Under the pieces are notes generated by a model that searched no databases, had not been told where the DNA came from, and saw only the letters and a list, made by a program, of their open reading frames with translations. Of a stretch of DNA of 24,667 nucleotides, positions 2 to 5,924 are shown one piece after another. The stretch covers positions 1 through 24,667 of the IMG/VR virus record IMGVR_UViG_3300006104_000070, one strand, 5' to 3'. Each line of letters opens with the position of its first letter. The stretch's first letter is position 1. Made by a program: the position numbers and the translations under genes. The DNA is from a virus.

Positions 2-316
2 GAAAGAATATCAGAAGCGTTAAAAGGTAAAACAAAATCAGAAGAGCATAGAAAAAAATTAAGCGAAGCTGGTAAAGGTAAAACTCCTTGGAATAAAGGC
101 AAGACAGGTGTTCAAAAAGGCTCCAGATTAGGAGTAGAAGTAAGTGCCGAAACCCGTGCTAAAATGTGTGCCGCACAAAAAGGTAAAGTAATGTCGGACT
201 TGCAAAAAGAGAAAATAAGTGCTACACTTAAAGGTAGAAAGATGTCAGACAAAACTAAAAGAAAGATGTCAGAAGCAAGAAAAAAATTATGGGAACAAAA
301 ACGAAATGAAAAGTAA
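2..316 (+). CDS. NUMOD3-repeat protein, 3' end of a probable homing endonuclease (partial)
   Basis: The reading frame is open from the left edge and ends in TAA at 314-316, so only the last 104 residues are present. They are very Lys-rich and repeat the pattern 'SEALKGKTKSEEHRKKLSEA', 'GKTPWNKGK', 'SATLKGRKMSDKTKRKMSEA'. This is the NUMOD3 (nuclease-associated modular DNA-binding) motif, typically found downstream of a GIY-YIG nuclease domain in phage homing endonucleases of the Seg/I-TevI type. The nuclease domain itself would lie left of the window and is not seen. The stop codon overlaps the start of the dpdA-like gene, so the element sits directly against the modification genes. The C-terminal DNA-binding role is confident; the nuclease type is inferred. 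Confidence 0.8.
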   Translation, partial: ERISEALKGKTKSEEHRKKLSEAGKGKTPWNKGKTGVQKGSRLGVEVSAETRAKMCAAQKGKVMSDLQKEKISATLKGRKMSDKTKRKMSEARKKLWEQKRNEK

Positions 317-1877
317 ACCACCAGTAGATTTAAGTGTATTGAATAAGGATTATGCCTGCTATTTGCCAGCTATTAGCTCTTTCTATAGCACTTATGTTGC
401 CAAACAGAGATTAGAAAAGTTTGTACCCGATGATCGTATTCCTGCGGGATTTGATCGAGGTATTGAAGGTATGAACTTTTTAAATCCCGAAGAAGGATAC
501 TTCTATTACAAATATAGTTTATATTCTGCAGGTCATGCTCAATTAGATTTAACAAAAAGTCAAACACAAGACAGCATGATTCAACAACGTGATCGTGCTA
601 ACACAATGATGTTAGGCGATTCAGGCGGATTCCAGATTGGTAAAGGTGTTTTGAAATTTGATTGGTTAGATTTTGAAGGGCCCAAGGCTAACTATGTTCG
701 TCAACAGATTTTAGATTGGTTGGAACAAACCGCTGATTGGTCAATGATGCTGGACGTTCCTACTTGGGCATGTGATGAAAATCATACACACAAGACTGGA
801 CTAAAAACATTTGATGATTGTTTGGATAAGACTCGTTTCAATAACGATTATTTCCTAGTTAACCGCCAAGGTAAGACCAAGTTCCTAAATGTTTTACAAG
901 GTAGCGATTGGGAAACTGCTGAAAAATGGTATCAAGGCGTAAAAGAATTTAGCGATCCTAATGGTCCTTACGAGGGCAAGGAAGCCGAAGGTTGGGCATT
1001 CGGTGGTGCTAATATGTGTAAGATGGATATTGCTCTTAAACGTCTAATGACATTAAGAGAAGATGGTTTGCTAAAAGGCAAAAACTGGATCCACTTTTTG
1101 GGTACAGCACAGTTAGATTGGGCTTGCTATCTAACATCTATTCAACGACAAATAAGGAAACATATCAATGAAGAAATTACCATATCTTTTGACTGCGCCT
1201 CACCGTTTGTCGCAACAGCCTACGGACTTGTCTACACAAACTCGCAACATACCACAAAGCGGTGGAGTGTTGCTATGGAAAAAGCACCAGATAACAAGTC
1301 ACTTGCCGAATCAGACATTCCATTCCCGTGGGAAAGTGAATTCGGCCGCAGGCTGACCATGGGCGATATTTGTCATTATGCACCTGGCATGTTAAACAAG
1401 ATTGGCAAAGAAGGTCGTACAAGTTGGGATAGTTTTAGCTACGCCCTTATGATGGGTCATAATGTATATCAACACATTGTTGCTGTACAACGTGCTAATC
1501 ATCTAATGGATGTTGAACGTGCTAAACATAAACCCGACTGGCGTCATTGGAAGAAGTTAGATTCTAAAAATATCAACAGCGATGAATATAGTGAATGGGT
1601 TCCACGTAGTATTTTGTATTTCGATCGTTTTGTAGAAGAACTTTTTAATACAAAAACTAAAGACGAAGCATTTGCTATGATTGATAAAGGTATTGGATTT
1701 TTACGTAGTTTGGAAGGTTCTAGACTACGTGGAGGCCCTGCCCAAAATACATTTAACAACTTTTTTGAAATAGATGTTCCAGTGATTGATAAAACTGTAT
1801 CAGAAATTTTTGCTATGCCAGAGTTAGACGAAAGCAAGTTAGATGATTTGGAAAATAAGTTTAACGAAGATCTATGA
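306..1877 (+). CDS. dpdA: DpdA-like DNA guanine transglycosylase (TGT family)
   Basis: This 523-aa protein of the tRNA-guanine transglycosylase superfamily probably exchanges guanine in phage DNA for a 7-deazaguanine base. TGT landmarks appear in order: DSGGFQ (residues 105-110, substrate-pocket Asp), VLQGS (196-200, like the VQGS loop), FGGAN (232-236), HFLG (263-266, like the YLMG strand) and FDCASPF (295-301), whose Asp296 matches the TGT nucleophile. The canonical CxCxxC zinc site of tRNA TGTs is not visible; only one Cys (356) follows the nucleophile. ATG at 306 is preferred to upstream in-frame starts because it overlaps the preceding stop by the usual few bases and has GGGA at 291-294. 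Neighbouring QueD-like and QueE-like genes support a DNA-modifying DpdA rather than a tRNA enzyme. I cannot assign the DpdA subfamily from sequence alone. Confidence 0.85.
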   Translation: MKSKPPVDLSVLNKDYACYLPAISSFYSTYVAKQRLEKFVPDDRIPAGFDRGIEGMNFLNPEEGYFYYKYSLYSAGHAQLDLTKSQTQDSMIQQRDRANTMMLGDSGGFQIGKGVLKFDWLDFEGPKANYVRQQILDWLEQTADWSMMLDVPTWACDENHTHKTGLKTFDDCLDKTRFNNDYFLVNRQGKTKFLNVLQGSDWETAEKWYQGVKEFSDPNGPYEGKEAEGWAFGGANMCKMDIALKRLMTLREDGLLKGKNWIHFLGTAQLDWACYLTSIQRQIRKHINEEITISFDCASPFVATAYGLVYTNSQHTTKRWSVAMEKAPDNKSLAESDIPFPWESEFGRRLTMGDICHYAPGMLNKIGKEGRTSWDSFSYALMMGHNVYQHIVAVQRANHLMDVERAKHKPDWRHWKKLDSKNINSDEYSEWVPRSILYFDRFVEELFNTKTKDEAFAMIDKGIGFLRSLEGSRLRGGPAQNTFNNFFEIDVPVIDKTVSEIFAMPELDESKLDDLENKFNEDL

Positions 1878-1929: not shown

Positions 1930-2469
1930 ATGAAACGAAACTATACATCAGGCGAACATACCGATGTTCAGTTCTTTACAGGAACTGAAATTGAGCATAC
2001 GCCTGCATTTGGATTAGAAACCTTGTTTGTTACAGGCGTACAGCCTATCGATAAGATAGAAAGTATTCTTGTAGACAGCAATTCTTGGCTAGACACATCT
2101 AAGCATATTAAGCATATCTTCTTTGGTGCTAATCACAGTTTTCATCCTAGTTCTTTTGAAGAGTGGCAAAATTGGGAAAGTATGATTCAGTACTTTTTAG
2201 ATCAAGATTATTTTTGCAGTCTTGATATTCCAGTTGCACTAGCAGAAGAGTTTTTAGATAACGGATTAAACGAATATAATAACTTTATTCCACAAATTCG
2301 TGTTCCAATCCCGTATATCGGTTTGTGGAATTATAATACAATGATTAAGATCGACGATAAAGATTTTAATGCAACCAATCCCGGTGTGTGGTCACACAGT
2401 CTACACTCACTGAAGGATCGTAGTAAGTTTACAGACTGGTCTCAATATAGTAAGGACAAAACATTATGA
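1930..2469 (+). CDS. Conserved phage protein of unknown function in the deazaguanine cluster
   Basis: This 179-aa soluble protein has no membrane segment or signal peptide. I do not recognise its domain. It begins 'MKRNYTSGEHTDVQFFTGTE' and contains the stretch 'HIFFGANHSF' followed by an aromatic, acidic middle (EEWQNWESMIQYF). ATG 1930 is preferred to the in-frame TTG at 1915. Its stop overlaps the next start as ATGA (2466-2469), so it is translationally coupled to the 59-aa and QueD-like genes. Its place directly between the DpdA-like and QueD-like genes suggests a part in making, guiding or inserting the modified base, but nothing in the sequence shows a reaction. Confidence 0.7.
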   Translation: MKRNYTSGEHTDVQFFTGTEIEHTPAFGLETLFVTGVQPIDKIESILVDSNSWLDTSKHIKHIFFGANHSFHPSSFEEWQNWESMIQYFLDQDYFCSLDIPVALAEEFLDNGLNEYNNFIPQIRVPIPYIGLWNYNTMIKIDDKDFNATNPGVWSHSLHSLKDRSKFTDWSQYSKDKTL

Positions 2470-2645
2470 TTACAACTAAGGTTACTAAGGGTGCTCCAAA
2501 GCCGGATGTAGAAGAACGCTTGTTTAAAGTACTCGAAGGCATTGACTGGAAGCTGTGGGAAATCTATAATATGATGAAAGATAACCTTCCATCAAAACCC
2601 ACAACTGCTAGTCAAAAAGTTGTTAAGAAACCGTCAGCAGAATGA
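2466..2645 (+). CDS. Small 59-aa protein coupled to QueD-like gene
   Basis: This short gene is easy to miss. It starts at ATG 2466, overlapping the previous stop (ATGA), and stops with TGA at 2643-2645, overlapping the next start (ATG 2642). Both overlaps are of the 4-base kind used throughout this gene string, the main reason to believe it. The protein begins 'MITTKVTKGAPKPDVEERLF', has a central amphipathic, Trp-containing stretch (IDWKLWEIYNMMKD) likely to be a helix, and ends in a basic, Pro/Lys-rich tail. It has no recognised domain and could be a small partner or regulator of the flanking enzymes. Confidence 0.6.
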   Translation: MITTKVTKGAPKPDVEERLFKVLEGIDWKLWEIYNMMKDNLPSKPTTASQKVVKKPSAE

Positions 2646-3013
2646 CAACTAGCACTTATATCAAAGTTCGAACAGAATTCGAAGGATTTCATTTTTATCC
2701 TAACGCAGGATTGATCGATCCTCGTATCGAATTCTTAGAACATGAACATCGCCATATGTTCAAGGTTGAAGTTAAAATCTCTGTCACGCATTTGGATCGT
2801 GAACTAGAGTTCTTCCTTGTTAAATGGGCACTACAAGATTTTATCAAAGCAGGCAATCAGAATCATAAATCCTGCGAAATGATAGCAACAGATATTTTGC
2901 AAAACCATCTTATTCCCACATACGGAGAACGATATTACGAAGTTGTGGTTTCTGAAGATGGTGAGTCAGATGGTATTGTAGAATATACTCCACTTATTTC
3001 ATTAACCTCCTAA
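2642..3013 (+). CDS. QueD-like (6-pyruvoyl-tetrahydropterin synthase fold) protein lacking the catalytic Cys
   Basis: The 123 residues fit the T-fold of QueD/PTPS (about 120 aa). The zinc triad is visible: His17 in FEGFH (as in QueD 'FEAAH') and His36/His38 in HRH followed by MFKVEVKI (as in QueD HGH-SFMVRLEI). SCEMIATDIL (77-86) matches the conserved TSExLA helix, and VVVSED (101-106) matches the strand carrying the pterin-anchoring Glu. Two features of real 6-carboxytetrahydropterin synthase are missing: the catalytic Cys four residues before the first H of HGH is Leu32, and the LDHxxLN segment is absent. It is therefore probably not a normal QueD. A QueD paralogue of this sort (DpdL) has been proposed to decarboxylate 7-carboxy-7-deazaguanine in phages; this is a candidate, on inference. 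It overlaps the 59-aa gene by 4 bases. Confidence 0.7.
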   Translation: MTTSTYIKVRTEFEGFHFYPNAGLIDPRIEFLEHEHRHMFKVEVKISVTHLDRELEFFLVKWALQDFIKAGNQNHKSCEMIATDILQNHLIPTYGERYYEVVVSEDGESDGIVEYTPLISLTS

Positions 3014-3032: not shown

Positions 3033-3257
3033 ATGGCTAATATCCCTGCCTATATCCAAAAAACTCTTAAGATGAAACCCGAAGTTACACGGGTGTTCGA
3101 TGACTTGGATCGGTGGCTTGACCACTGCCGTTTCAACCTTATTAAGTATGACGAAAAGGATCTGTATCGCAGTCCCGACTATCGTCGTTATCAACAAGAG
3201 CAAGAGTACTTGGAGCGTAAGGCACGCCGAGAAGCACGAGCACGTCAGGAAGCGTAA
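3033..3257 (+). CDS. Small charged protein, unknown function
   Basis: This 74-aa protein is preceded by an AAAGGA ribosome-binding site (3017-3022) about 10 bases before ATG 3033. Its stop shares bases with the next start (TAATG at 3255-3259), coupling it to the glycosyltransferase gene. The N-terminal part (IPAYIQKTLKMKPEVTRVFDDLDRWLDHC) looks helical. The C-terminal third is a strongly basic, Arg/Glu-rich helix (YLERKARREARARQEA) that could bind nucleic acid or a partner. No family is recognised. Good RBS and tight packing support it as a real gene. Confidence 0.7.
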   Translation: MANIPAYIQKTLKMKPEVTRVFDDLDRWLDHCRFNLIKYDEKDLYRSPDYRRYQQEQEYLERKARREARARQEA

Positions 3258-4351
3258 TGGCAAATGTATTCATCGTCGATATAGAGGCGGTGGAGAGTAG
3301 GTACACGGGACAATGGCAGTCTCATGTACCTTATCTACTTGCAAAGGAAGATCACAATGTTCAAATTATCTCTGGTCCTACGGACATTCCTAGTGCCACT
3401 ACTCCTGGCGCCTTTCTTAATTTTGGCGGCACTAATATCTACAAGTCTGCTCAAGTTGAACAGATTAGTCGTTTATTTTGCTCCGGAGCAGTTAAGCCTG
3501 GCGATCATTTTTTGTTTACTGACGCTTGGCATCCTGGCATTATAAACTTAAAATACATGAGTGAGCTGTTGCAGATTCCTGTAACAACACACGGCTTATG
3601 GCATGCGGGCAGTTATGATCCTCAAGACTTCTTAGGACGCCTTGTTGGCGATAAACCTTGGGTTAGACACGCTGAAAAGAGTTTTTACCATGCGTTTGAT
3701 CACAACTATTTTGCCACAGACTTCCATGTAAGAATGTTCTTTAATAATCTACTACACGATTATCCTAGTGAGAATCCTTGGCATGATGAGGACTTCGAAC
3801 GTCGATACGAAAGTGGTAAAATTGTTCGTACAGGCTGGCCTATGGAGTATATGGACACACTACTGAGCGGTGATGGTCCTTATCAAAAGGATGACTTAAT
3901 CTTGTTCCCACATCGTATTGCTCCAGAAAAGCAAGTGGAGATTTTCCGTGACCTAGCCAAGTACTTACCACAATATGAATTTGTTGTTTGTCAAGATCAA
4001 CCTCTGACCAAGCATGAATATCATCGATTGTTAAAACGTGCTAAGATTGTGTTCAGTGCTAATCTACAGGAAACACTGGGCATTAGTTGCTACGAAGGTG
4101 CTATGGTAGATGCTATCCCTATGGTGCCAGATCGACTATCATATACAGAAATGTATTACAGCGGATTCAAGTACCCTAGTGAGTGGACAGAAAGTTTTGA
4201 AGCCTATGAAACCCACAGACAAGAACTATGTGCCTTAATCATTCAAACTATGAATTTTTATAATCAACAGGTGCCGCAGGTTAAGAAACAGGCACAGGAC
4301 TTAACTGAACATTTTTTTAGTGCAACTAACTTATTGAAAAATTTAAAATGA
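3257..4351 (+). CDS. GT-B type glycosyltransferase
   Basis: This 364-aa protein has the C-terminal signature of GT-B/GT4-like enzymes. Arg220 and Lys225 (FPHRIAPEK) sit in the usual R-x4-K nucleotide-sugar diphosphate site. An E-x7-E motif runs from Glu272 to Glu280 (ETLGISCYEG), followed by a VDAIPMVPD loop matching the usual 'ACGxPVV' segment. The N-terminal half (MANVFIVDIEAVESRYTGQW, later HGLWHAGSYDP) would be the acceptor domain. Donor sugar and acceptor are not evident. It is joined by TAATG and ATGA overlaps to neighbours inside a deazaguanine cluster, so the acceptor may be a modified DNA base, as T4 glucosyltransferases act on hydroxymethylcytosine. A virion protein, host surface polymer or small molecule are alternatives. 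Confidence 0.75.
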   Translation: MANVFIVDIEAVESRYTGQWQSHVPYLLAKEDHNVQIISGPTDIPSATTPGAFLNFGGTNIYKSAQVEQISRLFCSGAVKPGDHFLFTDAWHPGIINLKYMSELLQIPVTTHGLWHAGSYDPQDFLGRLVGDKPWVRHAEKSFYHAFDHNYFATDFHVRMFFNNLLHDYPSENPWHDEDFERRYESGKIVRTGWPMEYMDTLLSGDGPYQKDDLILFPHRIAPEKQVEIFRDLAKYLPQYEFVVCQDQPLTKHEYHRLLKRAKIVFSANLQETLGISCYEGAMVDAIPMVPDRLSYTEMYYSGFKYPSEWTESFEAYETHRQELCALIIQTMNFYNQQVPQVKKQAQDLTEHFFSATNLLKNLK

Positions 4352-4809
4352 AATTCCTTTTAAACTTCTTGGATAAAATTGGTCGTCGACGTATTATTAT
4401 GGATCGAGAAGAAAATGAACCATATCTAGAACGCTATTATGTTTTCCTTAAAGATCGTAAAGCATTTCCGTTCAATATCTTTATCCACAAGTTTTTAAAG
4501 AGTGACCCCGATGATGTTCACGATCACCCATGGCCCTATGCCACACTTATTCTGCGTGGCGGTTACTATGAATGGGTACCCGAGTTTAATAGCCTAGGAG
4601 AAAAAATTGGAGAAATTCGTCATTGGCGTGGCCCTGGTCATTTTCGTATTTGCAAACCTACTTCATACCATCGCATTGAATTGGATCCCAATGTAACAGC
4701 ATGGACTTGTTTTATGCCTGGGCCACAACGGCGGGAGTGGGGATTTTTAGTCAACAACAAGTGGATTCATAATGAACAATACCTTACAGATCGAGCAAAA
4801 AATGGATAA
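4348..4809 (+). CDS. Cupin-like metal-binding protein
   Basis: This 153-aa protein contains a cupin-like double-stranded beta-helix pattern: HDH (His58, His60) in DPDDVHDHPWP, a hydrophobic strand ending in a Gly turn (TLILRGGYYEW), and a second motif PTSYHRIEL with His108. These three His residues would bind a metal such as Fe(II); the Glu of the classic first cupin motif is not evident. Small cupin proteins of this form are common in large aquatic phages and mostly uncharacterised. It starts with an ATGA overlap on the glycosyltransferase gene and overlaps the MazG-like gene at its end. An oxygenase, an isomerase such as a nucleotide-sugar epimerase, or a binding protein are all possible. 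The sugar-isomerase idea would suit the neighbouring glycosyltransferase. Confidence 0.6.
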   Translation: MKFLLNFLDKIGRRRIIMDREENEPYLERYYVFLKDRKAFPFNIFIHKFLKSDPDDVHDHPWPYATLILRGGYYEWVPEFNSLGEKIGEIRHWRGPGHFRICKPTSYHRIELDPNVTAWTCFMPGPQRREWGFLVNNKWIHNEQYLTDRAKNG

Positions 4810-5080
4810 GAGAACCAAAGAAGTAATGGACATTCTACAAGAAGAATGTGCAGAAGTAATCCAAGCTATTAGTAAAATTAGTCGCTTCGGCCTAAATAAT
4901 TTCAAGCCTGGCAAACCAAAAACAAACAAAGAACACCTAGAAGAAGAGTTAGGCGATGTACTCGCAATGATTGACATTCTACATGAGTTGGATGTAATAT
5001 CATATCATAACTTAAAAGCCGCTACTGCTGCTAAAAAAGAAAAACTAAAGAAATGGTCTAATATATATGAGCAAGATTAA
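4772..5080 (+). CDS. MazG-like nucleotide pyrophosphohydrolase
   Basis: This 102-aa all-alpha NTP-PPase-type protein has the metal-binding motifs EExxE (Glu24, Glu25, Glu28 in QEECAEVI) and ExxD (Glu59, Asp62 in EEELGDVLAMIDIL). MazG-like enzymes split (d)NTPs into NMP and pyrophosphate. In phages they are thought to tune nucleotide pools or the alarmone response. Start is uncertain: ATG 4772 lies well inside the cupin gene, whereas ATG 4802 would give a more usual 8-base overlap and a protein 10 residues shorter; both keep all motifs. The 3' end overlaps the start of the QueE-like gene by 14 bases. In a base-modification cluster it might remove unmodified or unwanted nucleotides, but that is inference. 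Confidence 0.8.
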   Translation: MNNTLQIEQKMDKRTKEVMDILQEECAEVIQAISKISRFGLNNFKPGKPKTNKEHLEEELGDVLAMIDILHELDVISYHNLKAATAAKKEKLKKWSNIYEQD

Positions 5081-5924
5081 AATCGCAGAATTATTTTACA
5101 GCATTCAGGGAGAAGGAAGATATATGGGGGTACCGTCAATCTTCTTAAGAACTTTTGGTTGCAATTTTACCTGCGACGGTTTTGGCATGCCACTTGGAGA
5201 GAAAAGCCAAGAAAGGCACGATATTGCCCGGGTGGCGCATTTTTATAACAAATACGAAGAACTTCCATTGGTAAATTCTGGGTGCGACTCATACGCCTCC
5301 TGGATGCCTGATTTTAAAGATCTAAGCCCAATGCTCACAACTGATGCTATTGCGGATCGTATTATGGAAATTCTCCCACATGGAGAATGGCGGGATGAAC
5401 ATTTGGTAATCACAGGCGGAGAGCCATTGCTGGGTTGGCAAAAGCAATATCCGGATTTGTTAGATCATCCTAAGATGTCTAATTTGAGAGAAATTACTTT
5501 TGAAACTAACGGCACAATGAGGCTAACGAAAGAATTCAAAGAATATCTACATACATGGAAATATCATCAAGATAAAGACTTTGGTCGCGAAATTACATTT
5601 AATGTCAGTGCAAAATTACCAGCAAGCGGCGAGCCATGGGAGGATGCAATAAAACCCGATCGTGTTTGCGAGTATGAAGAATACGGTACAGCATATTTGA
5701 AATTAGTAGTATCAACAGAAGAGGACATTAAAGATGCAGAACGAGCAGTTGACGAATTTAGAGCGGCAGGTTTTAAAGGTCACGTATACCTTATGCCTGT
5801 CGGCGGTGTTGAGTCTGTTTATAATCTCAATGCTCGATCCGTTGCCATTGCCGCAATGAAGCGAGGGTGGCGTTATAGTGATCGTCTACAAGTGCCATTG
5901 TTCAAAAACGAGTGGGGGACTTAA
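5067..5924 (+). CDS. queE: QueE-like radical SAM 7-carboxy-7-deazaguanine synthase
   Basis: This 285-aa protein has clear QueE features: EIF/ELF-YSIQGEG (residues 8-17) with GVPSIFLRTFGCNFTC, TGGEPLL (116-122, SAM-binding GGE), FETNGT (145-150) and VSAKLPASGE (180-189). QueE rearranges 6-carboxytetrahydropterin to 7-carboxy-7-deazaguanine using SAM, an [4Fe-4S] cluster and Mg2+. The cluster motif is unusual. Cys32 and Cys36 form Cx3C, but the expected third Cys two residues later is replaced (CDGFGMP). GCDSY with Cys73, which resembles the 'xxCDSxxxW' end of the normal motif, comes after an insertion of about 35 residues. The motif thus reads Cx3Cx36C. The protein is longer than typical QueE (about 210-245 aa). 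It is coupled to the MazG-like gene upstream and by TAATG to the next gene. Confidence 0.88.
   Translation: MSKIKIAELFYSIQGEGRYMGVPSIFLRTFGCNFTCDGFGMPLGEKSQERHDIARVAHFYNKYEELPLVNSGCDSYASWMPDFKDLSPMLTTDAIADRIMEILPHGEWRDEHLVITGGEPLLGWQKQYPDLLDHPKMSNLREITFETNGTMRLTKEFKEYLHTWKYHQDKDFGREITFNVSAKLPASGEPWEDAIKPDRVCEYEEYGTAYLKLVVSTEEDIKDAERAVDEFRAAGFKGHVYLMPVGGVESVYNLNARSVAIAAMKRGWRYSDRLQVPLFKNEWGT

Follow-up and report, generated by a model that had tools for sequence, protein, structure and literature searches.

Introduction

FolE, QueD and QueE make 7-carboxy-7-deazaguanine (CDG), and QueC continues the pathway to preQ0 (PMC13329287; PMC6884629). QueC is common in phages (332 records). A second way of handling CDG has reportedly been proposed by Cui et al. 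2023 (NAR 51:9214, doi 10.1093/nar/gkad657). This study is said to have detected both dDG and dCDG in the DNA of phages and to have given the name DpdL to a predicted decarboxylase of CDG. DpdL is said to be a QueD-related phage protein, to which CDG decarboxylation was assigned in dDG-containing phages. The title of that study stands in the reference list of PMC12783734.

Here we describe a DpdL-like protein from an uncultured viral contig (IMG/VR record IMGVR_UViG_3300006104_000070), whose whole analysed stretch of 24,667 nucleotides is called the window below. Like DpdL as it is reportedly described, the family of this protein is QueD-related, lacks the catalytic residues of QueD, and occurs with DpdA and QueE and without QueC. 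The window member differs from DpdL in its origin from an uncultured phage, in a DpdA that has no Pfam match and in a linked glycosyltransferase. By its reported features and gene setting, the family is very probably the DpdL of 2023, as the sequence-only reading had suggested; the window protein would then add a member to that family rather than be a protein of a new kind. What is new is the broad distribution of DpdL-like genes, the tightly linked glycosyltransferase and the copies on Magnetospirillum contigs.

Gene arrangement of the locus

The window genes from DpdA to QueE lie close together or overlap, as listed here.

306 to 1877, plus strand: DpdA, a TGT-fold DNA guanine transglycosylase; 523 aa from the ATG at 306 (the listed ORF starts at GTG 219)
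1930 to 2469, plus strand: conserved protein with an invariant KIDD...TNPGVW motif (KIDDxDFxATNPGVW), which travels with the DpdL-like gene and DpdA
2466 to 2645, plus strand: 59-aa ORF that overlaps the start of the DpdL-like gene; no family match
2642 to 3013, plus strand: DpdL-like protein, ATG start, 123 aa; QueD/T-fold, with the H17/H36/H38 triad, L32 at the catalytic-Cys site, and S77-C78-E79 and E105 conserved
3033 to 3257, plus strand: 74-aa ORF lying after the DpdL-like gene and before the glycosyltransferase; weak match to phrog_21183 (0.0096)
3257 to 4351, plus strand: putative glycosyltransferase of the Glycos_transf_1 type; PF00534 in 11 of 43 relatives, the best at 0.0017
4348 to 4809, plus strand: cupin-like protein; phrog_4786 'cysteine dioxygenase' (6.5e-36), in 25 of 89 DpdL-like loci
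4772 to 5080, plus strand: MazG-like nucleotide pyrophosphohydrolase; PF03819 (1.4e-7)
5067 to 5924, plus strand: QueE-like 7-carboxy-7-deazaguanine synthase, which makes CDG; phrog_2076 (8.9e-51)

The sequence-only reading had given the order as DpdA, DpdL-like gene and QueE. The order was correct, but the genes are not adjacent, as two ORFs intervene after DpdA and four before QueE. The AlphaFold model of DpdA (306-1877) had a pLDDT of 83 and 88 PDB matches at E≤0.001, with the best at 5e-8; the best 50 of the 88 were all tRNA-guanine transglycosylases. DSGGFQ and FDCASP motifs were largely invariant in DpdA of the window's type, and none of its 23 members matched PF01702 (TGT). Judged from the predicted structure, the window DpdA apparently belongs to a very diverged subfamily that is recognisable by fold only. 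The window QueE scored below the curated cut-offs of cellular QueE models. The family of the 1930-2469 protein was present in 61 of 89 DpdL-like loci and, among cultured phages, only in 11 Pseudomonas records and ACP17 (2 records), all of which carry the DpdL-like gene. By eye, positions 1-316 of the window, just upstream of dpdA, hold the tail of a homing-endonuclease-like ORF with NUMOD-type repeats.

Conserved residues and fold

We collected 182 distinct relatives of the DpdL-like protein, 181 of them complete. H17, L32, H36, H38, R53, E56, S77, E79 and E105 were invariant in every complete row, and C78 was kept in 180 of 181. His17, His36 and His38 had been read as the QueD zinc ligands, Leu32 as the substitute for the catalytic Cys, and the LDHxxLN segment as missing. 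The alignment bore out all three claims: the three His and Leu32 never varied in the complete rows, and no Asp-His dyad was conserved, with 101 His and 48 Tyr at position H75 among the 182 sequences. The spacing L32-x3-H36-x-H38 equals the C-x3-H-G-H spacing of QueD, and the three-His site is predicted to bind metal. Since Leu32 is fixed across the relatives, loss of the catalytic Cys is a defining mark of the whole family. Beyond these positions, R53, E56, S77-C78-E79, R97 and E105-D106 were nearly as conserved as the His triad. In the alignment with QueD, E79 falls on the glutamate of PTxEN and E105 on the 'ET' glutamate that anchors the substrate.

The AlphaFold model had a pLDDT of 92.4 and a pTM of 0.83. 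Its top PDB match by Foldseek was E. coli QueD 4ntk (E 2.3e-4, probability 1.0, TM about 0.6-0.7), followed by other PTPS structures and a preQ0-binding (deazaguanine-binding) QueF-like enzyme. Searches of Pfam, NCBIfam and PDB sequences with the protein and its profile gave no significant relative, so fold and profile comparison carry the case for homology to QueD. The C-terminal half of the DpdL-like profile (SCE...ED) aligned with a phage QueD profile (P 2.8e-6), S77-C78-E79 to G-C-E and E105 to a conserved Glu, and this phage profile matched canonical QueD at 1.4e-16. Because the direct comparison of the DpdL-like profile with canonical QueD was not significant (P 0.05; P 0.13), the phage-type QueD is the bridge between the two. 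PF01242 (PTPS) did not match the window protein and reached 0.14 in one of 17 relatives, while control phage QueDs matched it at 1e-12 to 5e-20. The window protein matched phrog_17812 at 7e-20, as did all 17 members of the family alignment; this phrog is without a recorded function, and the function given below is supplied by inference. A match of the family to the Thoeris inhibitor Tad6 was weak (0.094) and was taken as chance.

The DpdL-like protein is a QueD-fold protein in which the residues for the metal and for anchoring the ring remain while the catalytic Cys and the Asp-His dyad are gone, much as the first reading had it: a QueD relative with its zinc site and without its catalytic residues. 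It shares with QueD (4ntk; PF01242) the fold, the three His ligands and the glutamates of the C-terminal half. It differs from QueD in Leu for the catalytic Cys, in the missing dyad, in the missing PF01242 match and in the presence of a separate QueD in most of the genomes.

The DpdL-like domain was also seen at the C-terminus of longer proteins (Bakedbeans, L003:7218-8369; MA9V-3, L090:6458-7339). The BFVD entries A0A6J5LEZ6 and A0A8S5V119 (459 and 300 aa; 'Alcohol dehydrogenase, N-terminal' and 'AAA domain protein') contain the fold as well. Separately, a short phage QueD type (L001:4241-4708, L086:2748-3224, L184, L192, L194) carries HCxxxHGY instead of HGH and lacks a His in the first strand; it must therefore use other metal ligands than canonical QueD.

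Distribution

By tblastn, DpdL-like relatives were found in 27 of 50,697 phage records. The matching gene was annotated hypothetical, and none of the 27 records carried the annotation DpdL. Relatives were also present in about 600 IMG/VR contigs (at least 596 confirmed) and at 18 loci of GTDB genomes.

Magnetospirillum contigs (L175:6835-10917; also L173, L176 and L178) carry glycosyltransferase, DpdL-like, DpdA and QueD genes, and on L173 and L175 the genes stand in this order. An integrase-like ORF lies near the deazaguanine genes of L175, and no obvious phage structural genes were seen within 16 kb on L173 and L175. These loci are possibly a bacterial or proviral deazaguanine island.

Place in the deazaguanine pathway

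Gene content was counted over 36 long records carrying the DpdL-like gene. QueE was present in 34, FolE in 31 and a separate PTPS/QueD in 25. DpdA was present in 28, 19 of them with the window's type and nine more found with a second alignment. QueF over cut-off and convincing QueC were each found in none of the 36, although many contigs may be fragments and gene absences are therefore soft for those contigs. Two QueC matches over cut-off were both partial. QueC-like matches in three records were set aside by reading the sequences: one looked NAD-synthetase-like, one was another PP-loop protein, and one was a divergent ORF that adjoins a nicotinate phosphoribosyltransferase-like gene. Two QueF matches below cut-off were dismissed, as both lie inside FolE genes. 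One viral contig of 224 kb (G014, record L116) had six DpdA-like matches.

The linkage was also examined from both sides. All 40 DpdA loci with at least 4.5 kb downstream carried the DpdL-like gene, these loci being mostly close relatives. A deazaguanine gene was found in all 89 DpdL-like loci with 5 kb on each side. At least three distinct types of DpdA accompanied the DpdL-like protein. A 97-kb contig with an identical DpdL-like protein and DpdA (G001) had QueE and gave no FolE and no PTPS match; either this contig is incomplete or the host supplies the phage with CPH4.

Vibrio phage 2.275.O offers a contrast. Its DpdA is of the window's type (31% identity), and the phage also has QueC, QueF, a PF02592 uptake transporter and FolE, but neither the DpdL-like gene nor the glycosyltransferase. 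With QueE and DpdA present, QueC and QueF absent, and this contrast, the DpdL-like protein is placed after QueE, in the slot of QueC, and we consider that place very likely. The phages of the QueC/QueF branch (CAjan with QueC, Vibrio phage 2.275.O with both) share the pathway position with it, that is, the handling of CDG before DpdA. They differ in that the DpdL-like protein is unrelated to QueC and QueF, and that the DpdL-like records examined held no convincing copy of either. The sequence-only interpretation is upheld in part: as to the QueD fold, the metal triad, the lost catalytic residues and a role in DNA 7-deazaguanine synthesis at a step from QueE to DpdA. As QueC and QueF are absent, CDG is the expected branch point, and where CDG is made without QueC, DpdA must insert CDG or a CDG derivative.

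Proposed function and alternatives

Our preferred reading, with a probability of roughly 0.6, is that the DpdL-like protein is a diverged, zinc-dependent QueD-fold enzyme that decarboxylates CDG to 7-deazaguanine in place of QueC. We infer the substrate from gene context, the decarboxylation from the chemistry and the proposal attributed to Cui et al. 2023, and with them the end product. CDG, the product of QueE, would be the substrate of the DpdL-like protein. As QueD and QueF do, it would grip the 2-amino-4-oxopyrimidine ring through glutamates, here E105 and E79; a T-fold pocket of this sort fits CDG as ligand. The 7-carboxylate would face the three-His metal site, which may hold or activate it, and one of the conserved acidic or basic groups (H50, R53, E56 or C78) may protonate C7 while CO2 departs, which would give 7-deazaguanine. 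DpdA would then swap guanine for 7-deazaguanine in phage DNA, leaving 2'-deoxy-7-deazaguanosine. Phages without QueC could also insert CDG itself, in which case the DpdL-like protein would have another job.

Decarboxylation leaves the near-constant glycosyltransferase neighbour unaccounted for. Genes of the 3257-4351 family were found in 82 of 89 DpdL-like loci and beside the DpdL-like gene and DpdA in Magnetospirillum. Among the 50,697 phage records, all 15 with a glycosyltransferase relative at 80% coverage or more also carried the DpdL-like gene. No such glycosyltransferase is present in CAjan and Vibrio 2.275.O, two phages of the QueC type. This pattern would suit a protein that acts on CDG, or on dCDG already inserted into DNA, and yields with the glycosyltransferase a further modified, possibly glycosylated, 7-deazaguanine. 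We think this rather unlikely, since seven DpdL-like phages (the phiST, Bakedbeans, RHph_I1_18, D479, MA9V-3, Ahp1 and Roos records) have no glycosyltransferase, so that it is not required, and 7-deazaguanine offers no obvious hydroxyl for glycosylation. The linked enzyme is possibly a DNA-base glycosyltransferase, and it may act on the same DNA base or on something else. Equally tentative is the idea that the DpdL-like protein and the glycosyltransferase, perhaps with the 1930-2469 protein, form a module making a new, sugar-bearing or otherwise hypermodified DNA 7-deazaguanine from CDG; the genes of its core (glycosyltransferase, DpdL-like gene and DpdA, with a QueD) are present on the Magnetospirillum contigs too.

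The protein might instead be a working, diverged QueD/PTPS that converts dihydroneopterin triphosphate to 6-carboxytetrahydropterin or another pterin, with C78 as a relocated catalytic Cys. The QueD fold, the metal site and the near-invariance of C78 agree with this, and 11 of the 36 records have no PTPS match, among them G002 (157 kb) and G004 (164 kb), both with QueE and DpdA. However, the separate canonical QueD of most genomes argues that the job of the DpdL-like protein differs from that of QueD. The Asp-His dyad, invariant in both phage QueD alignments, is lost with the catalytic Cys in every DpdL-like member. Phage QueDs, which retain both Cys and dyad, often have a Cys at the C78 position too, so C78 is no sign of a moved nucleophile. 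In the tree, a comparison that the sequence-only reading had called for, the DpdL-like proteins formed their own clade, separate from both QueD groups with support of 100/99; the branch is long and the tree therefore says little on which QueD is the parent. We regard pterin synthesis as improbable.

A non-catalytic accessory, that is, a CDG-binding or DpdA-assembly subunit on a QueD-like scaffold, is very improbable: T-folds do get reused for binding and the domain does end some longer proteins, but a metal triad and charged pocket residues that are invariant across very diverged phages are unusual for a scaffold, and the variety of co-occurring DpdA types makes a fixed DpdA interface unlikely.

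Significance

If CDG decarboxylation by the DpdL-like protein is true, phages would have two routes for CDG: QueC, which leads to preQ0, preQ1 and archaeosine-type bases, or removal of the carboxyl group by a reused QueD fold. The latter route would be widespread in uncultured and laboratory phages, including the P. aeruginosa phages PA5oct and Paride, in which the gene is annotated hypothetical. A decarboxylase on a pterin-synthase scaffold would also show plainly how an enzyme can be repurposed. With the linked glycosyltransferase, one more DNA base becomes a possibility open to test, and the cultured phages with a DpdL-like gene make the base in their DNA directly measurable.
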